Source of the DNA: Aequorivita aquimaris
GTDB lineage: Bacteria; Bacteroidota; Bacteroidia; Flavobacteriales; Flavobacteriaceae
Length of the DNA stretch: 64,000 nt
NCBI RefSeq assembly: GCF_001573155.1
Contig: NZ_JRWG01000004.1
Span: 62,001-126,000, forward strand
Direction of reading: 5' to 3'
Shown one piece after another: positions 1,715 through 9,200 of this stretch; position 1 is the stretch's first letter; every line of letters starts with the position of its first letter. The position numbers were made by a program, and so were the translations under genes. A model generated the notes under the pieces. The model did not search any database. It had not been told where the DNA came from and worked only from the letters and a program-made list of their open reading frames with translations.

Positions 1715-2062
1715 ATGGATATACAAATAAAACGCATATACGAAAAAGCTGCAAACCGTGACGGTACCAGGATTTTGGTAGACCGCGTTTGGCCGCGGGG
1801 TGTAAGCAAGGAAGACGCAAAACTTGACGAATGGATGAAGGAGATTGCTCCCTCAAAAGAACTTCGGAAATGGTTTGACCACAAAGAAGAACGTTTTGAT
1901 GGGTTTTCAAAAAAATATAAAAAAGAATTAAAAGACCATTCCGATTTGGTGGAACAACTGTTGGAAAAAGCCAAAGAAAAACGCCTCACCCTCCTCTATG
2001 GCGCAAAAGATGAAAAACACAATCAGGCCGTAGTCTTAAAGGAATATTTGGAAGACCAATAA
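1715..2062 (+). CDS. DUF488 family protein (YeaO-like)
   Basis: Small soluble protein of 115 residues, the usual length for the family. It shows the family signature ILVDRVWPRG near residues 20-29 and the conserved tail LTLLYGAKDEKHNQAVVLKEYL. The biochemical role of DUF488/YeaO proteins is not settled, so none is assigned. It follows kynA on the same strand but is separated by about 130 bp of repeats, so co-transcription is doubtful. Confidence 0.85.
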   Translation: MDIQIKRIYEKAANRDGTRILVDRVWPRGVSKEDAKLDEWMKEIAPSKELRKWFDHKEERFDGFSKKYKKELKDHSDLVEQLLEKAKEKRLTLLYGAKDEKHNQAVVLKEYLEDQ

Positions 2063-2124
2063 ATTCTTCATTATAAAACCTTTTCAGTATTTTTAAAACC
2101 AGTAAACCATCATTGAACAATAGA

Positions 2125-2877
2125 ATGAAGTATTTTCTTGCGCTTTTATTTCTCAGTTTTTCATTTATCGCCCAATCGCAAATCCTAAATGCCGAATCGC
2201 TTCGAAAGGTTACAGACACTTCAGGTTTTTCGGGTTCGGTAAGTCTCGGTTTTTCACTGAAACGCGATGTGAATGACTATTTCGCCTTTAGCAGCAGCAC
2301 CCATCTGCAGTATAAAATGAACAAACATTTGGTGCTATTAAAAAATGATATTGAACTGAAAAATATTGAAGGCAACAAATTTGAGAATGCGGGAATAACC
2401 CATCTTCGATATAATTATAGATTTCATCCCCGAATAGCTTGGGAGGTTTTTGCACAAGCACAGTATAACAAAGTTTCAAAAATAGATTTTAGAGGTTTGG
2501 TTGGAATAGGACCACGTTTTAAATTGACAACTTCAGAAAAGTATAAGTTCTATTTGGGAACCCATATAATGTATGAACAAGAGGAGCTCAGCGATGGTAT
2601 AACTCCACTTCAACGTGATTTTCGGAGCACCTCCTATCTTTCCTTTAGTTTATACCCAACAGAAACCATAAGCCTTGTAAGTACTACCTACTACCAACCT
2701 AAACTTAAAGACTTTAGTGATTACCGCTTATCAAACCAAAGTTCATTGCTTATTGATTTATTCAAGAATTTTGCCTTTAAAACTACCTATACATTTATTT
2801 ATGATGAAACCCCCGCGAATGGTATCCCAAACTCACAGTATAATCTGGAAAGTGGTTTTGTTTATTCTTTCGATTAA
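2125..2877 (+). CDS. DUF481-type outer-membrane beta-barrel protein
   Basis: About 250 residues. The ATG at 2125 is chosen over an in-frame TTG at 2113 because it places a clean Sec signal peptide (KYFLALLFLSFSFIAQSQ) at the N-terminus. The rest is alternating amphipathic strands with aromatic girdle residues and ends in an aromatic-rich strand (ESGFVYSFD), as outer-membrane barrels do. It resembles DUF481 proteins, which form small barrels of unknown substrate. It lies 110 bp before the arsenosugar-type cluster, but nothing ties it to that pathway. Confidence 0.65.
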   Translation: MKYFLALLFLSFSFIAQSQILNAESLRKVTDTSGFSGSVSLGFSLKRDVNDYFAFSSSTHLQYKMNKHLVLLKNDIELKNIEGNKFENAGITHLRYNYRFHPRIAWEVFAQAQYNKVSKIDFRGLVGIGPRFKLTTSEKYKFYLGTHIMYEQEELSDGITPLQRDFRSTSYLSFSLYPTETISLVSTTYYQPKLKDFSDYRLSNQSSLLIDLFKNFAFKTTYTFIYDETPANGIPNSQYNLESGFVYSFD

Positions 2878-2987
2878 ATTGTTAAACTTTCGTAAGCATG
2901 CTCCTTTATCAAAGACTACTTGCCTATATTTACCTTTATTGAAAACCAAAATCCCTAAAATTTCGTACTTATAAATAAAGCATTCCT

Positions 2988-3326
2988 ATGGCCTCACAGA
3001 ATTATTATGACCCTGCAGATTTAAAAAAATTCGGAAATATTACACAATGGAGCAAAGAGCTCGGTGAAAAGTTTTTTGAATATTATGGAAAAGTTTTTGA
3101 AGAGGGCGCCCTCTCTGCCCGTGAAAAATCACTCATAGCACTTGCAGTGGCCCATACCGAAATGTGCCCCTATTGCATTGATGCCTATTCAAAGGATGGC
3201 TTGCAACGCGGCATTACCAAAGAAGAAATGATGGAGGCCGTTCACGTAGGCGCAGCTATTAAAAGCGGTGCCAGCTTGGTACACGGGGTGATGATGATGA
3301 ACAAGGTAAATAAATTGGAAATGTAG
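2988..3326 (+). CDS. CMD/AhpD-like protein of the arsenosugar locus (peroxidase-like)
   Basis: A 112-residue carboxymuconolactone-decarboxylase-fold protein. The redox CxxC is CPYC at 60-63, inside the family core EKSLIALAVAHTEMCPYC, followed by AVHVGAAIKSGASLVHG. It matches the family annotated as arsenosugar biosynthesis-associated peroxidase-like protein, which habitually sits beside arsS, as here (54 bp upstream). A role in thiol redox or in protecting or reducing an arsenic intermediate is inference; no activity is established. It is the first gene of the plus-strand cluster. Confidence 0.85.
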   Translation: MASQNYYDPADLKKFGNITQWSKELGEKFFEYYGKVFEEGALSAREKSLIALAVAHTEMCPYCIDAYSKDGLQRGITKEEMMEAVHVGAAIKSGASLVHGVMMMNKVNKLEM

Positions 3327-3380
3327 GCACGCCATTCATCACGCGCACAGAAAAAACATACGAATATTCAGAAAAAATTT

Positions 3381-4457
3381 ATGCTGAAAGAAAAAAAGAA
3401 AAAGCAACAGTCACTTCACAAACGCGATAGCGAATATGCCCTTGCAAATAAACAGCTCGAAAAACTCTCCAACGGTATTTTTGCCAACGGGGAGCTCCCT
3501 ACATTTTCGGAAAAAATAAAGCAGACGGACCAATTTCCATTGCGCCCCAACAAGCTTGAGATTCTCCAAATTAACGTGGGCTATATGTGCAATCAGGTTT
3601 GCGAGCACTGCCACGTAGATGCAGGGCCGGACCGGAAGGAAATTATGACGCGCGAAACCATGTTGCAATGCTTGGAAATAATTAAAAACACCGGTGCCCA
3701 CACCTTGGACCTAACTGGCGGCGCCCCGGAAATGAACCCGAATTTTCGCTGGTTTGTAGAAGAAGCCAGCAAAGCCGGAATTCAGGATTTTATCGTTAGA
3801 AGTAATTTGACAATCATTCGCGCCAACAAAAAATATTACGACCTGCCCGAATTTTTTAAGAAACACAACGTGCACGTGGTGAGCAGCATGCCGCACTGGA
3901 CCCGTGGCAAAACCGACAAACAAAGAGGCGAAGGCGTTTTCGACCTTTCCATCAAGGCTTTGCAGGAATTGAACGCGGTAGGTTACGGAATGCCGGACAG
4001 CACCCTGCGGCTGGATTTGGTGTATAACCCCAGCGGCGCCTTCCTTCCGGGCGACCAGGCCAGTATGGAAAAGGATTTTAAGAAAGCATTGCTTGAGGAT
4101 TTCGGGATACATTTCCACAATCTTTTTGCTATTACCAACATGCCGATTTCCAGATTTTTGGATTATTTGATTGCTTCGGAAAACTATGAGGATTATATGT
4201 ATTCCCTGGTGGAAGCGTACAATCCCGCAGCGGTAAAAAACGTGATGTGCCGCAATACCATTTCGATAAGTTGGGATGGGTATTTGTACGATTGCGATTT
4301 CAACCAAATGCTGGAATTGAAGGTGGCAAGCAAGATTCAACATGTTTCGGAATACAACGAGGATGTTTTAAACGATAGAAAAATAATTATTTCGCAGCAC
4401 TGCTATGGTTGTACGGCGGGCGCCGGGAGCAGCTGCCAAGGCGCCGTGGCGGAGTAA
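3381..4457 (+). CDS. arsS: Arsenosugar biosynthesis radical SAM protein ArsS
   Basis: Radical S-adenosylmethionine enzyme of 358 residues. ArsS is known to join the 5'-deoxyadenosyl group of SAM to dimethylarsenite, giving the precursor of arsenosugars. The radical SAM cluster motif is CNQVCEHC (Cys70, Cys74, Cys77), followed by DLTGGAPEMNP and a SAM-binding core. The C-terminal DUF3641 part contains CRNTISISWDGYLYDCDFNQML and ends in a Cys-rich segment (CYGCTAGAGSSCQG) that probably holds a second cluster. A Lys-rich N-terminal 30 residues precede the core. It lies between the CMD protein and a rhodanese. A cognate arsM is not in this window. Confidence 0.92.
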   Translation: MLKEKKKKQQSLHKRDSEYALANKQLEKLSNGIFANGELPTFSEKIKQTDQFPLRPNKLEILQINVGYMCNQVCEHCHVDAGPDRKEIMTRETMLQCLEIIKNTGAHTLDLTGGAPEMNPNFRWFVEEASKAGIQDFIVRSNLTIIRANKKYYDLPEFFKKHNVHVVSSMPHWTRGKTDKQRGEGVFDLSIKALQELNAVGYGMPDSTLRLDLVYNPSGAFLPGDQASMEKDFKKALLEDFGIHFHNLFAITNMPISRFLDYLIASENYEDYMYSLVEAYNPAAVKNVMCRNTISISWDGYLYDCDFNQMLELKVASKIQHVSEYNEDVLNDRKIIISQHCYGCTAGAGSSCQGAVAE

Positions 4458-4481
4458 AGGATCGATTGTAAATATGCTTCC

Positions 4482-4982
4482 ATGAAACAATTTTCACTTC
4501 TTATACTGCTGTTTCTAATGGCAAAAATCAGTTTCGCCCAAAAAAACGTGGACGAATTGCTCGAAGCCTACAATACCCGCAGCGTACCGTACATTTCAGT
4601 GGAAGAATTGAGAATGTTTCAAATGAACGATGCCGTAACAATTCTGGACGCCCGCGAACCTGAAGAATTTGCGGTAAGCCATATAAAATCTGCAATAAAT
4701 GTGGGTTACAACGATTTTACTTCTGAAGAAAAACAACTTCAAAATCTAAACAAGAATATTCCCGTAGTTGTTTATTGTTCGGTGGGAATCCGTTCCGAAA
4801 AGATAGGCGAAAAATTAAAAAAAGCAGGATTTACGAAGGTTAAAAATCTCTACGGTGGTATCTTTGAGTGGAAAAACAAGGGCTACCCCGTCTTCGATTC
4901 CGCGGGAAAGGAAACTGAAAATGTACACGCCTTTTCCAAGCATTGGAGCCAGTATTTGAACGCGGGAAAACCTGTTTATTGA
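4482..4982 (+). CDS. Secreted rhodanese-like protein
   Basis: 166 residues: a Sec signal peptide (cleavage after about residue 19, ISFAQ) followed by a single rhodanese domain. The active-site Cys99 lies in VYCSVGIRSE, and the domain ends in NLYGGIFEWKNKGYPV. The product is probably periplasmic. Rhodaneses transfer sulfane sulfur; a few bind oxyanions. The start is 25 bp after arsS on the same strand, so it is likely co-transcribed. A role in thio-arsenical formation would fit the context but is speculation. Confidence 0.85.
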   Translation: MKQFSLLILLFLMAKISFAQKNVDELLEAYNTRSVPYISVEELRMFQMNDAVTILDAREPEEFAVSHIKSAINVGYNDFTSEEKQLQNLNKNIPVVVYCSVGIRSEKIGEKLKKAGFTKVKNLYGGIFEWKNKGYPVFDSAGKETENVHAFSKHWSQYLNAGKPVY

Positions 4983-4997
4983 AACAAATTTACTTTA

Positions 4998-5017
4998 ACG
5001 CGCTTCATAAGGCGCGT
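4998..5017. other. Small GC-rich hairpin before the DUF2064 gene
   Basis: ACGCGC (4998-5003) pairs with GCGCGT (5012-5017) around an 8-nt loop in the 52-bp gap. There is no T tail, so it is not a typical terminator; it could be an mRNA processing or stability element. Confidence 0.4.
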
Positions 5018-5034
5018 CAGCAGAACTCTACAAA

Positions 5035-5727
5035 ATGGCATTATTAAATTCCAAAGAAACCAGTAGCGATAACGAAATGGCCCGTGATTTCTACTTTCCT
5101 ACCTCTAAAAAAGCACTGATTATTTTCACCCGAAACCCAGAACTTGGTAAAGTGAAGACCCGGCTGGCGAAATCGGTGGGCGATGAAAGTGCTTTGGAAA
5201 TCTATAAATTTCTGCTGAAGCACACCGTAGCAATTACCAAAAATTTAAACGTTGATAAATACGTGTTTTATTCCGAAAATATCCACCGCGATGATATTTG
5301 GGATCCTGAAATTTTCAGAAAAAAACTGCAAACCGGCACCGATTTAGGCGAAAAGATGCAAAATGCTTTTTCAGAATTATTCGAAATGGGCTACGAAAAA
5401 GTTCTCATTGTGGGAAGCGATATTTTCGAACTGGGCCAAAGTGACATTGAAAACGCCTTCGAAGTTTTACAGACAACTGAAACGGTAATAGGCCCTGCCA
5501 CCGATGGGGGCTATTATTTATTGGGAATGAAGGAGCTGAACGCTACAATATTTCAAAATAAAAATTGGGGCACGAGTACGGTTTTGGAAGAAACGCTGTC
5601 CGATTTAAGGCAAAAGAAATACGTTTTATTGGAAGAGCGGAATGATGTGGATTATTATCAAGACATTAAAGAGATTGATGCTTTTCAGCAATTTTTACCT
5701 CCTTACTTAGACAAAAACTTTTTATAA
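5035..5727 (+). CDS. TIGR04282 family (DUF2064) arsenosugar-locus glycosyl/nucleotidyltransferase
   Basis: A 230-residue GT-A-fold protein. It carries the family signature FTRNPELGKVKTRLA near residues 31-45 and GPATDGGYYLLG near 151-162. The usual acidic metal motif is present as VGSDIFEL. DUF2064 is related to CofC-like nucleotidyltransferases, so sugar-phosphate activation is as plausible as glycosyl transfer. About 20 extra residues precede the domain; an internal ATG at 5077 would remove most of them. The stop is separated by one base from the PNP start, which indicates translational coupling. It belongs to the ArsS locus. Confidence 0.85.
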   Translation: MALLNSKETSSDNEMARDFYFPTSKKALIIFTRNPELGKVKTRLAKSVGDESALEIYKFLLKHTVAITKNLNVDKYVFYSENIHRDDIWDPEIFRKKLQTGTDLGEKMQNAFSELFEMGYEKVLIVGSDIFELGQSDIENAFEVLQTTETVIGPATDGGYYLLGMKELNATIFQNKNWGTSTVLEETLSDLRQKKYVLLEERNDVDYYQDIKEIDAFQQFLPPYLDKNFL

Positions 5728-5728
5728 A

Positions 5729-6547
5729 ATGAGCATTTTAAAATACATTGAAGAAGCCGCAGATTTTCTAAAACAGCGCGGTTTCGATACACCCGAAGTT
5801 GGAATTATTTTAGGCACGGGCCTCGGAAAATTAATTGAAAAAGTGGTAATTGAAGCCGAGGTAAGCTACAACCACATTCCAAATTTTCCCACTGCCACCG
5901 TGGAATTCCATAAAGGAAAATTGATTTACGGCACTTTGGAGGGAAAAAAAGTAGTGTTGATGCAGGGTCGATTTCACGTTTATGAAGGCTATTCGCTGCG
6001 CGACGTTACCTTTCCTGTGCGCGTAATGCACCTTTTGGGAATCAAACATTTGCTGGTGAGCAACGCTTCGGGAGCTATAAACCTCAACTTCAAAAAAGGC
6101 GAAATAATGTTGATTGACGACCATATCAATCTACAAGGCGACTCGCCCCTCGCCTTCCGCGGCGTTGAGAAAATGGGCGAACGTTTTGTGGATATGAGCG
6201 CGCCCTACAATGTTGAAATGAACCAAAAAATGGAGCAGATAGCTTCCGAAAAAAATATAAAATTGCATAAAGGCGTTTATGCCAGCGTGGTTGGGCCGCA
6301 ATTGGAAACCCGCGCGGAATACCGCTATTTAAAAATAATAGGTGCCGATGCCGTGGGAATGAGCACCGTACCTGAGGTTATCGTAGCCAATCATTTGGGC
6401 TTACGCGTTTCTGCCGTTTCAATCCTAACCGATGAATGCGATCCCGACAACCTACAACCCGTGGATATTGAAGAAATAATCGCAATGGCCGCCAAAGCGG
6501 AACCGGATATGATTACTTTGTTTACGGAGTTGATGAAAAGGTTGTAG
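5729..6547 (+). CDS. Purine-nucleoside phosphorylase (trimeric PNP family)
   Basis: 272 residues, full length for the PNP/MTAP class. Motifs are ILGTGLGKL (phosphate loop), MQGRFHVYEGYS, SNASGAIN, VGPQLETRAEYR and GADAVGMSTVPEVIVANHLGL. The enzyme cleaves purine nucleosides with phosphate to base plus (deoxy)ribose-1-phosphate. It starts 1 bp after the DUF2064 gene inside the ArsS locus, not with other salvage genes. That suggests its substrate may be the 5'-arsenical-5'-deoxyadenosine made by ArsS, giving arseno-ribose-1-phosphate. This is inference; housekeeping guanosine/inosine phosphorolysis is the default reading. Confidence 0.9.
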   Translation: MSILKYIEEAADFLKQRGFDTPEVGIILGTGLGKLIEKVVIEAEVSYNHIPNFPTATVEFHKGKLIYGTLEGKKVVLMQGRFHVYEGYSLRDVTFPVRVMHLLGIKHLLVSNASGAINLNFKKGEIMLIDDHINLQGDSPLAFRGVEKMGERFVDMSAPYNVEMNQKMEQIASEKNIKLHKGVYASVVGPQLETRAEYRYLKIIGADAVGMSTVPEVIVANHLGLRVSAVSILTDECDPDNLQPVDIEEIIAMAAKAEPDMITLFTELMKRL

Positions 6548-6590
6548 ATTGCATTCCAGCCCTGACAACAAGTCTATCCCAGAAATATAA

Positions 6591-7487
6591 ATGGAAAAAT
6601 ACTTAAAGATATTCAAGGATTCGTATCACGGCTACTTCAACTATCTGTGGAACGAGATAACGCATTTCCATTGGGAAAACTATTTCTATGGATTGATACT
6701 CGTTTCTTTAATAGTCTGGGTTTTGGAGTTGCTCTTTCCGTGGCGGAAGAACCAAAAAGTTTTTCGAAAAGACTTTTGGCTGGACACTTTTTATATGTTT
6801 TTCAATTTTTTTCTGCTGAATTTAATCGTGCTCATTTTTCTCTCAAATGCCACGGCTGAACTGTTCAACGATCTTTTGGGAATGGTTGGATTGGAACTTT
6901 TGGATTTCCAACTTCTCGATTTGGATGCGCTTCCCTTCGGATTGGGGCTTTTAATATTCTTTCTCGTTACCGATTTTGTGCAATGGAACACGCATCGTCT
7001 GCTGCACTACTCCCCTTTTCTGTGGAATTTTCACAAGCTGCACCATTCGGTAAAAGAGATGGGGTTTGCCGCGCATCTTCGCTACCACTGGATGGAACCC
7101 GTGGTTTACAAATCTATTCTTTACATACCGCTCGCCATCATTGGAGGTTTTAATGTGGAATCGGTTGCAATTGTCCATTTCTCGGCGCTCGCAATCGGGC
7201 ATTTAAACCACGCCAATTTGGGTTGGGATTATGGTTTTTTAAAATATATTTTCAACAATCCCAAAATGCACATTTGGCATCACGCTAAAGTTTTGCCAAA
7301 ACACGCGCAATACGGTGTTAATTTCGGGATTAGTTTAAGCGTGTGGGACTATCTTTTCAAAACAAATCATATTCCGCACGACGGCAGGGATATAGAGTTA
7401 GGCTTTGATGGCGATGAAAATTTTCCTTCAAAATTTATCTCGCAGGAGTTATATCCCATAAAAACCAAACGTCGAAATAGTTCGTAA
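6591..7487 (+). CDS. Sterol desaturase / fatty acid hydroxylase superfamily membrane protein
   Basis: 298 residues with about four or five membrane segments. The di-iron histidine motifs are in order: HRLLH (HX3H), HKLHH (HX2HH), a further His in HLNH, and HIWHH. Members hydroxylate or desaturate lipids or cleave ether lipids using O2. It lies 43 bp after the PNP gene on the same strand, so it is probably part of the same transcript. In an arsenosugar-type locus a lipid-modifying enzyme raises the possibility of arsenolipid formation, but this is only positional evidence. Confidence 0.85.
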   Translation: MEKYLKIFKDSYHGYFNYLWNEITHFHWENYFYGLILVSLIVWVLELLFPWRKNQKVFRKDFWLDTFYMFFNFFLLNLIVLIFLSNATAELFNDLLGMVGLELLDFQLLDLDALPFGLGLLIFFLVTDFVQWNTHRLLHYSPFLWNFHKLHHSVKEMGFAAHLRYHWMEPVVYKSILYIPLAIIGGFNVESVAIVHFSALAIGHLNHANLGWDYGFLKYIFNNPKMHIWHHAKVLPKHAQYGVNFGISLSVWDYLFKTNHIPHDGRDIELGFDGDENFPSKFISQELYPIKTKRRNSS

Positions 7488-7513
7488 CTATTTTAAAATA
7501 AAGCCATACAAAA

Positions 7514-8317
7514 ATGAAAACCGCATTAAATCTCGCCACCCTATTCTTCCTCACCTTCTTTTTGCAAAGTTGCAATCTGCTTTCAGCCGCGGGCGTTAGC
7601 AGCCAAGGCCAGCCTACCAAAGAAGTGAAAAACGAACTCACTTCCACCACCGCCAATTCGGCCGTAAACATAGACCATTCGCAATGGGACAAACTGCTGA
7701 AAAAATATGTAAACAGCCAAGGAATGGTAAATTACAAAGGTTTTAAAAAGGACGAGGCCAAGCTGGATGAATATCTGCAAATGCTTTCGGAAAAAAACCC
7801 GACTGATGATTGGAGCGTGCAGGAATTGCTGGCGTATTACATCAATCTTTACAACGCAGCCACCGTAAAATTGATCGTGGAAAACTATCCCGTAAAAAGT
7901 ATTAAAGATATTGATGGCGCTTGGACCAAAGGCCGTGTGGCAGTGGGCGATAAAATGCTATCCCTCGGTGGAATTGAAAACGGAATCCTTCGGAAAATGA
8001 ACGAGCCACGTATCCATTTCGCTATAAATTGTGCTTCCATTTCGTGTCCAAAACTCTTGGATGAGGCCTACACCGCTACAAAAATCAACGAACAATTAGA
8101 ACGGGCTACCAAAGAATTTATCAATAGTAACAAAAACGATATTTCAGCAAGCAACACAAAGGTTTCCTCCATTTTTGACTGGTACGCAAAGGATTATAAA
8201 GTGAATGGAAAACAAGATGTTATCGGGTTTATCAATAAATATTCAAATACAAAGATAAATCCCGGAGCGACTTTGAGCTACAAGAATTATAACTGGGAAT
8301 TGAACGAACAAAAATAA
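7514..8317 (+). CDS. DUF547 domain lipoprotein
   Basis: 267 residues. The signal peptide ends in a lipobox (FFLQSC, Cys20), so it is a predicted lipoprotein of the envelope. The DUF547 domain follows: LLAYYINLYNAATVKLI and HFAINCASISCPKL are its conserved blocks, containing Asn and Cys residues typical of the family. Its function is unknown. It lies 26 bp after the desaturase gene and before the TIGR04283 glycosyltransferase. The location suggests an envelope role connected to the locus product. Confidence 0.85.
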   Translation: MKTALNLATLFFLTFFLQSCNLLSAAGVSSQGQPTKEVKNELTSTTANSAVNIDHSQWDKLLKKYVNSQGMVNYKGFKKDEAKLDEYLQMLSEKNPTDDWSVQELLAYYINLYNAATVKLIVENYPVKSIKDIDGAWTKGRVAVGDKMLSLGGIENGILRKMNEPRIHFAINCASISCPKLLDEAYTATKINEQLERATKEFINSNKNDISASNTKVSSIFDWYAKDYKVNGKQDVIGFINKYSNTKINPGATLSYKNYNWELNEQK

Positions 8318-8438
8318 GTAGTCAGTTTTCAGTAGCAGTAAACAGAATTTTTAGGCGACAAATAGATTGCGAGTCTAATCATAACATTATATTTGAAACG
8401 GTTCGATTTTTTCTAAACCCGAAACCTGAAACCAAATA
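8318..8438. repeat. Intergenic repeat words before the TIGR04283 gene
   Basis: Holds CAGTTTTCAGTAGCAGT (about 8322-8338), a word shared in variants with 13811-13830 and 46446-46501, and a degenerate TTAGGCGA...GCGAGTCTAA hairpin resembling those at 19821-19842 and 38069-38096. No promoter is evident. Confidence 0.5.
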
Positions 8439-9200
8439 ATGCTTTCCATCATCATACCGGTTTTAAACGAGGCCGAAATCATTACGGAATTACTCAATTA
8501 TCTTTCGGAAAATCTCTCTGGGGAAAATGAAGCTGAAATCATCGTGGTTGATGGCGGCAGTAACGATGGCACCCAAAATATCATCCTTGCTTTTAAACCC
8601 AACAGGTTTTTAAAACCTGTTAGATTTATAGAATCTGACAAAGGCCGCGCCAAACAAATGAACAAAGGTGCGCAAATGGCTAACGGCGAGGTGTTTTACT
8701 TTATGCACGCCGATTCCTTTCCGCCGAAAAATTTTGACAGATACATTCTGTCGGAAGTAAAAAAAGGAAATCCCGCAGGCTGTTTCCGAATGAAATTTGA
8801 CAGCGACCATTGGTGGCTAAAGTTGGCCGGATGGCTTACGCAATTCCATTGGCGTGCCTGCCGTGGCGGCGACCAAAGCCAATTTATAACCAAAAGACTT
8901 TTTGAGGAAATTGGCGGTTTCGACGAAACCTACACGATTTACGAAGACAATATTTTAATCAACGAACTTTATAAACGGAAAAAGTTTGTGGTAATCCAAA
9001 AATGCATCACAACCTCTGCGCGTCTTTACAGGCAAAAAGGCGTTTGGAACTTGCAGTACCACTTTTGGGCAATTTATGTGAAACGCTGGTTTGGCGCAGA
9101 TGCCGATGAATTATACCAGTATTATTTGAAGCATATCAAGCAAGCGAATTCAACAGAAATTTCAGAAGAAAAATTCTCCAATCAAGTTGCTGAAAATTAA
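8439..9200 (+). CDS. TIGR04283 family arsenosugar-locus glycosyltransferase (GT2)
   Basis: 253 residues with a GT-A fold. Motifs are IIIPVLNEA, VVDGGSNDGT, GRAKQMNKGA and the DxD-like FMHADSFPP, then RGGDQSQFI and FDETYTIYEDN. This is the family commonly paired with TIGR04282 and ArsS; a transfer of a sugar or arseno-ribosyl group is likely but unproven. Between DGT and GRAKQMN it has about seven residues more than I expect of relatives, and that stretch is encoded by a near-perfect palindrome (8601-8621), suggesting an in-frame repeat insertion. A 120-bp repeat-containing gap separates it from the DUF547 gene. Confidence 0.85.
   Translation: MLSIIIPVLNEAEIITELLNYLSENLSGENEAEIIVVDGGSNDGTQNIILAFKPNRFLKPVRFIESDKGRAKQMNKGAQMANGEVFYFMHADSFPPKNFDRYILSEVKKGNPAGCFRMKFDSDHWWLKLAGWLTQFHWRACRGGDQSQFITKRLFEEIGGFDETYTIYEDNILINELYKRKKFVVIQKCITTSARLYRQKGVWNLQYHFWAIYVKRWFGADADELYQYYLKHIKQANSTEISEEKFSNQVAEN
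8601..8621. repeat. In-frame palindrome inside the TIGR04283 gene
   Basis: AACAGGTTTT (8601-8610) is the exact reverse complement of AAAACCTGTT (8612-8621), with one base between. Imperfect symmetry extends outward to about 8595-8627. It is read as KPNRFLKPVRF within the glycosyltransferase. Confidence 0.85.

Follow-up and report, generated by a model that had tools for sequence, protein, structure and literature searches.

A purine nucleoside phosphorylase encoded behind arsS in Aequorivita aquimaris as candidate for the step after ArsS in arsenosugar synthesis

Arsenosugars are a main form of organic arsenic in algae and seafood. Here we describe a gene cluster of Aequorivita aquimaris (Flavobacteriaceae) found in a stretch of 64,000 nucleotides, from here on called the window (NCBI RefSeq assembly GCF_001573155.1, contig NZ_JRWG01000004.1, positions 62,001 to 126,000 of the forward strand), in which the gene for the radical S-adenosylmethionine (SAM) enzyme ArsS is followed on the same strand by the gene for a purine nucleoside phosphorylase (PNP) of the PNP-I family. 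From sequence comparisons we consider it probable that this PNP is a phosphorylase for 5′-deoxy-5′-substituted adenosines and carries out the step after ArsS. As an overall explanation, a locus for ArsS and the later steps of arsenosugar synthesis is given a somewhat better than even chance. Six of its genes are the following:

2988..3326, + strand: CMD/AhpD-type partner of ArsS (TIGR04169, 184.5 bits, cut-off 120)
3381..4457, + strand: ArsS radical SAM enzyme (TIGR04167, 441.8 bits, cut-off 300)
4482..4982, + strand: rhodanese-domain protein (NF045521, 208 bits, cut-off 145; Pfam Rhodanese; apparent signal peptide by eye)
5035..5727, + strand: DUF2064/TIGR04282 protein, candidate nucleotidyltransferase (213.3 bits, cut-off 134)
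5729..6547, + strand: phosphorylase of the PNP-I family, proposed to free adenine from the ArsS product (NF006054, 348.4 bits, cut-off 218)
8439..9200, + strand: TIGR04283 GT2-type glycosyltransferase, candidate final transferase (224.4 bits, cut-off 182)

In the proposed pathway ArsS would attach the 5′-deoxyadenosyl group to an arsenical that is already methylated; that radical SAM enzymes adenosylate arsenic has been published (review PMC12159101). With phosphate, PNP would then release adenine from the ArsS product, leaving 5-deoxy-5-arsenical-α-D-ribose 1-phosphate. That nucleoside phosphorylases give the α product is stated in PMC7226091, and the phosphorolysis of 5′-deoxyadenosine by MtnP (PMC8102628) is a precedent. 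An insertion mutant in mtnP of Synechococcus elongatus has been published (PMC8102628), and ArsS is above the cut-off in the genome of this species that served as a control. DUF2064, as a CofC-like nucleotidyltransferase, would convert the 1-phosphate to a nucleoside diphosphate sugar with the configuration kept, a role to which we give an even chance. Finally, the TIGR04283 enzyme would move the sugar to an acceptor with inversion to give the β-riboside of the natural arsenosugars; its chance of being the last transferase we put slightly short of even. GT2 enzymes invert, and natural arsenosugars have the β configuration, which an α 1-phosphate followed by an inverting transferase would, if the pathway is correct, explain. 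The nucleotide, the acceptor and the oxidation state of arsenic in this scheme are guesses.

Profile matches were scored against the curated NCBIfam cut-offs, and Pfam was also used for the open reading frames (ORFs) of the window. The six genes lie on the + strand and all exceed their cut-offs. A preliminary description made from the letters alone had named these genes as neighbors on one strand with 1 bp between DUF2064 and PNP; the ORFs and the profile scores confirm this, the gap being measured from the DUF2064 stop to the ATG of PNP. PNP is also above the cut-off of TIGR01700 (304.6 vs. 293.35 bits). ArsS, 94% identical to the enzyme of Aequorivita soesokkakensis, has the CxxxCxxC motif of radical SAM enzymes at C70, C74 and C77, and the motif is invariant across 12 aligned ArsS.

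The linkage of the two genes was followed through a family sample of 299 Flavobacteriaceae genomes, of which 215 have ArsS and 265 have PNP-I above the cut-off. Among the matches listed (arsS in 149 genomes, PNP in 148, both in 90; not a random draw), 66 of the 90 genomes with both genes are linked cases, in which PNP shares the strand of arsS and follows it at a distance below 15 kb; the other 24 are split. Loci were fetched from both groups, 20 from linked genomes and 20 from split ones. In all 40, DUF2064 adjoins PNP, with a gap below 50 bp in 36. All 20 split genomes fetched still have PNP behind DUF2064, with CMD-arsS elsewhere and usually an arsenosugar-type arsM next; in 19 of them a TIGR04283 gene is within 6 kb of DUF2064-PNP. 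Altogether, arsenosugar-type ArsM is encoded within 1.3 kb of PNP in 33 of the 40 loci (17 of 20 linked, 16 of 20 split), the copy in locus L044 scoring 574.5 bits with NF038099 (cut-off 400) and the others being identified by comparison with it. The best 80 arsS loci of named genomes, by title nearly all from Flavobacteriaceae, include 64 whose sequence extends 9 kb or more downstream; 47 of these carry PNP. PNP-I is present in 214 of the 215 ArsS genomes of the family (tables compared by hand), the exception (G232) being an 80% complete genome. ArsS and TIGR04283 are likewise associated: both are found in 186 of the 299 genomes, only arsS in 29, only TIGR04283 in 16 and neither in 68 (p about 1e-28, uncorrected for kinship). 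Because the gene order of the window recurs in many genera, it is more than chance. PNP is thus a neighbor of arsS well beyond this strain, and it is not a sole housekeeping PNP, since the genome has a separate DeoD-type PNP; the opposite of both findings would have refuted the preliminary description.

Some of the loci have additional genes. In L052 (G153) and L053 (G071) about 7 kb lie between arsS and the rhodanese gene, encoding a TonB-dependent receptor (by Pfam, L052 copy) and a second, weak DUF2064-like ORF beside arsS. Of 20 arsS regions fetched from split genomes, 15 also have a weak second DUF2064-like ORF (43 to 69 bits), which lies on the same side of arsS as CMD (L058 of G080, L074-L093).

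In the human-type 6-oxopurine PNP, Asn243 and His257 are functional residues, and the exchange Asn243Asp shifts the human enzyme toward adenosine. By alignment, the window PNP has neither of the two residues:

6302..6304, + strand: Leu192, at position 200 of human PNP (the other clade of the family has Phe)
6431..6433, + strand: Asp235, human PNP Asn243
6467..6469, + strand: Ile247, human PNP His257

As described in PMC5147791, His257 of human PNP contacts O5′, whereas the ribose site of S-methyl-5′-thioadenosine phosphorylase (MTAP) is hydrophobic and without hydrogen-bonding groups, hence tolerates several 5′ substituents, and adenine is bound by aspartates in the Schistosoma MTAP. Asp235 and Ile247 of the window PNP correspond to the adenine-binding aspartate and the hydrophobic 5′ site of MTAP. 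By profile the protein is not an MTAP (TIGR01694, 89.2 bits, cut-off 274.85). These residues support the prediction that its active site would fit, MTAP-like, an adenine nucleoside lacking the 5′-hydroxyl group.

In a tree of 91 proteins the PNPs of the family form two well supported clades, which differ at human positions 200, 243 and 257: Leu, Asp and Ile/Val in the window clade, Phe, Asp and His in the other. All 40 linked and split loci fetched have a PNP of the window clade. Near the PNP of the other clade none of DUF2064, ArsM, TIGR04283 and rhodanese was found in any of 13 loci fetched, and the 19 genomes with only the other clade (by score) are all free of arsS. Assignment by score uses a gap at about 360 bits and was checked by residues on the fetched loci. 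Where both clades are present, as in G259, and by score only in G033, the window-type copy is the one beside arsS. In G379 and G506 of the phylum sample a window-type PNP is near arsS (8.2 kb on the same strand and 1.3 kb on the opposite strand, respectively), with another PNP elsewhere. Two residues were considered as marks of arsenic PNPs and rejected: Asp at 243, which is present in both clades of the family, and a hydrophobic residue at 257, which occurs in Bacteroidota free of arsS.

A second phosphorylase is found in the same setting on plasmids. Six genera carry arsS on plasmids, and one record was read per genus. In Acinetobacter portensis and Burkholderia glumae an annotated MTAP is clustered with arsS, TIGR04282 and TIGR04283, and a DUF547 protein recurs in both loci; in Cupriavidus sp. 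KK10 (unannotated) TIGR04283, DUF2064 and MTAP follow consecutively behind arsS. The three MTAPs score 312.1, 314.8 and 276.2 bits, all above the TIGR01694 cut-off. The cluster thus includes MTAP in three of the four proteobacterial plasmid arsS loci read, and in three of the six genera; an MTAP match was obtained in 73 of 72,556 plasmid records, 47 of the 73 being from Burkholderia. That two different phosphorylases occupy the same setting makes the reaction a better explanation than chance proximity.

Several observations weigh against the proposed role of PNP or limit its reach. The MTAP genes of Acinetobacter and B. glumae are on the strand opposite to arsS, and within 10 kb of plasmid arsS in Thiodictyon, Pseudanabaena and Hymenobacter (Bacteroidota) there is no phosphorylase. 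Outside Flavobacteriaceae, 40 arsS loci of the phylum were fetched, 37 of them spanning at least 7 kb on both sides of arsS; in none was PNP or MTAP found near arsS in a comparison with single PNP, MTAP, DeoD and uridine-phosphorylase sequences as queries, which could miss a remote enzyme. In 9 of the 40, arsS, DUF2064 and TIGR04283 are consecutive. Linkage to PNP as a general rule for arsS was therefore rejected outside Flavobacteriaceae, where any phosphorylase taking part would need to be encoded at another site of the genome. The window-type PNP is, moreover, common in Bacteroidota free of arsS. A set of 30 PNPs was made up of the best matches to the window type in 46 genomes (44 outside the family, mostly chosen for having two PNPs). 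The residue at 257 is hydrophobic in 29 of the 30, and 12 of these are from genomes free of arsS; the one with His comes from such a genome, too. In seven fetched loci the window-type PNP is kept without arsS, five times with DUF2064 beside it and twice without. TIGR04283 is retained in 16 family genomes lacking a full ArsS, 15 of which also lack arsenosugar-type ArsM; the sixteenth (G292) has a partial ArsS match and arsenosugar-type ArsM. The preliminary interpretation, by which PNP cleaves the ArsS product, is supported in part: PNP is tied to the arsenosugar genes (66 of 90 genomes), its 5′ site is predicted to fit, and MTAP is present instead in three of the four proteobacterial plasmid loci read. 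The idea that these genes serve arsenic only is not supported, in view of PNP in arsS-free Bacteroidota, of TIGR04283 in 16 genomes without a full ArsS and of the 40 loci outside the family.

A substitute for the phosphorylase was also looked for in distant loci. Among the 12 neighbor families that occur in at least 4 of 48 such loci no recurrent nucleosidase was seen by eye, the families not being profile-scanned. In 9 of the 48 loci (L198, L199, L200, L210, L215, L217, L220, L223 and L235) a gene next to arsS encodes a member of one BLAST-linked protein family, to which the annotated TVP38/TMEM64-FAD oxidoreductase of L199 seems to belong. In G345, a genome without arsS above the cut-off, two window-like PNP genes lie in tandem (contig C11:532375-534022, L245).

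That PNP is kept in arsS-free loci means that it has a use without arsenic, and one such use is the salvage of methylthioadenosine. The model for methylthioadenosine/S-adenosylhomocysteine nucleosidase finds no protein above its cut-off in the 19 family genomes having only the window-type PNP, and one in 9 of 11 genomes with the other type; MTAP is above the cut-off in none of 54 genomes. Methylthioadenosine salvage then needs some other enzyme, and salvage of methylthioadenosine and 5′-deoxyadenosine by the window-type PNP is likely. The contrast between the clades is not clean, since the nucleosidase was also not found in four genomes of genus g127 with only the other clade (by score), nor in the 18 genomes examined from outside Flavobacteriaceae; this weakens its absence as proof that the window-type PNP does the salvage. 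Searches in G127, G322, G444 and G460 of that genus gave neither PNP-I (E up to 1e-60) nor the nucleosidase (E up to 1e-12).

These findings, together with the wide occurrence of the window-type PNP without arsS and its retention in genomes lacking it, would also suit an enzyme that is solely a general salvage enzyme for methylthioadenosine, 5′-deoxyadenosine or purines with no part in arsenosugar synthesis; its position would then reflect old operon structure, or the clearing of 5′-deoxyadenosine that ArsS may shed. We regard this as unlikely, because it does not account for the tight coupling to DUF2064, for the clustered MTAP genes of three proteobacterial genera, or for the window-type copy near arsS in genomes that have another PNP-I as well (G259, G379 and G506, and by score only G033). 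In the proposed pathway, by comparison, the same PNP probably salvages methylthioadenosine and 5′-deoxyadenosine besides acting on the ArsS product, and this dual role would explain why it is retained in genomes without arsS.

The PNPs of arsS-free loci are scattered in the tree among those of arsS-bearing ones, and arsS was thus probably lost several times. The same scatter, by showing that the state arose repeatedly, is also compatible with a module of rhodanese, DUF2064, PNP and TIGR04283 that is not arsenic-specific at heart, forming 5-deoxy-5-X-ribosyl conjugates from any 5′-substituted 5′-deoxyadenosine, to which ArsM and ArsS only feed arsenic. DUF2064 beside PNP in five of the seven arsS-free loci and the 15 of 299 genomes that keep TIGR04283 without ArsS and arsenosugar-type ArsM point the same way, as does G263, where the module is preceded by genes for a different radical SAM protein and a different methyltransferase. 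Nevertheless, the strength of the association of arsS with TIGR04283 given above and the loss of both DUF2064 and TIGR04283 from two arsS-free genomes, which have PNP alone, make such a module quite improbable. The related reading, a general pathway for 5′-deoxy-5′-substituted adenosines (methylthioadenosine, 5′-deoxyadenosine and others) with ArsM plus ArsS as the arsenic plug-in, appears rather unlikely.

In the G263 locus (L111), positions 1749-8285, upstream of rhodanese-DUF2064-PNP-DUF547-TIGR04283, correspond to the place of CMD-arsS in the genus-mate G042, which has a full ArsS cluster. The region holds genes for an ABC importer and for an ArsM-like methyltransferase (NF008823, 181 bits, below the cut-off of 263), two ORFs that match nothing in Pfam, and the gene for the radical SAM protein, which passes the cut-off of none of the 25 NCBIfam families shown. 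The methyltransferase and the radical SAM protein are possibly a second plug-in. A plasmid relative of this radical SAM protein was sought and rejected: the 13 records gave partial matches only, and those listed are nirJ.

A quite different function, the reduction of arsenate by arsenolysis, could be suspected, since mammalian PNP is reported to reduce arsenate to arsenite in vitro (review PMC12608789). For the window PNP this is very improbable, as it leaves unexplained both the coupling to DUF2064 and the MTAP in other clusters.

For DUF2064 a structure model was built from 36 homologues (mean predicted local distance difference test score, pLDDT, 91.3). In the second alignment the best solved fold match is the uncharacterized 3cgx (Z 25.9), followed by 3-phospho-D-glycerate guanylyltransferase 7p97 (Z 18.1), MM2497 (17.4) and Rv2983 (15.6). 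Asp 129, 157, 204 and 206 are 100% conserved in 116 aligned sequences. The CofC-like nucleotidyltransferase fold named in the preliminary description is in line with this model, in which guanylyltransferases rank high, and the resemblance predicted to CofC/FbiD-type nucleotidyltransferases is supported; a member of the CofC profile family (TIGR03552) the protein is not (33.5 bits, cut-off 105). NCBIfam names it a glycosyltransferase, and the glycosyltransferase mannosylglycerate synthase is indeed among the fold matches, with a Z of 13.0 that ties with IspD and TarI (up to 13.5) and counts against nucleotidyl transfer. If the name were right, the sugar 1-phosphate would be used in another way. 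We find this doubtful, as the characterized guanylyltransferases 7p97 and Rv2983 rank higher and the CofC match, below its cut-off, is weak but real; the fold ranking speaks more for nucleotidyl transfer than for the name in the database, but is no proof.

PNP and the TIGR04283 gene are separated by two genes that the preliminary description does not mention, both frequent members of the cluster elsewhere:

6591..7487, + strand: fatty-acid-hydroxylase-type membrane protein (PF04116)
7514..8317, + strand: DUF547 protein (PF04784)

In the genus-mate G027 (L047) an arsenosugar-type arsM lies between PNP and the hydroxylase gene; at 6548-6590 of the window it is absent. No protein of the window genome exceeds the NF038099 cut-off, the best reaching 99.6 bits; this one is a general-type arsenite methyltransferase on contig C13 (NF008823, 376.5 bits). 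The arsenosugar cluster, if taken to include NF038099 ArsM in the cluster or the genome, is therefore incomplete in A. aquimaris.

Of the arsenosugar set of NCBIfam (ArsM, ArsS, TIGR04282, TIGR04283 and TIGR04169), all but ArsM are above the cut-off in the window, and NF038099 ArsM is present in most sister clusters. The arsenosugar names of these five families at NCBI are already known; new is the proposed phosphorylase step after ArsS. At NCBI, PNP is not named as an arsenosugar enzyme and TIGR04282 is named a glycosyltransferase; we propose that PNP follows ArsS in the pathway and that TIGR04282 is a nucleotidyltransferase. Among the titles and beginnings of abstracts listed we found no paper assigning the adenine-release step; one in a subscription journal is possible. 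A conserved phosphorylase, PNP-I in Flavobacteriaceae and MTAP in some Proteobacteria, would be a specific and quickly testable step after ArsS.

With MTAP/MtnP the window PNP shares the adenine-binding aspartate, and the histidine that binds the 5′-hydroxyl group is replaced in both by a hydrophobic residue, but by sequence the window protein belongs to PNP-I. DUF2064 resembles the CofC/FbiD-type guanylyltransferases in the fold of its model, the profile match being only 33.5 bits. A close analogy to the pathway as a whole is with the fluorometabolite and chlorometabolite routes (FlA/FlB and SalL/SalT), in which a bond to C5′ is formed on a SAM-derived adenosine and a 5-halo-5-deoxyribose 1-phosphate follows, as the 5-substituted ribose 1-phosphate would here. 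Of these intermediates 5-fluoro-5-deoxyribose 1-phosphate is mentioned in PMC8102628. The routes differ in that arsenic enters via a radical SAM enzyme and the sugar would be passed on to an acceptor. If the proposal is true, arsenic joins fluorine and chlorine as an element whose entry into metabolism is via a 5′-substituted adenosine and its ribose 1-phosphate.

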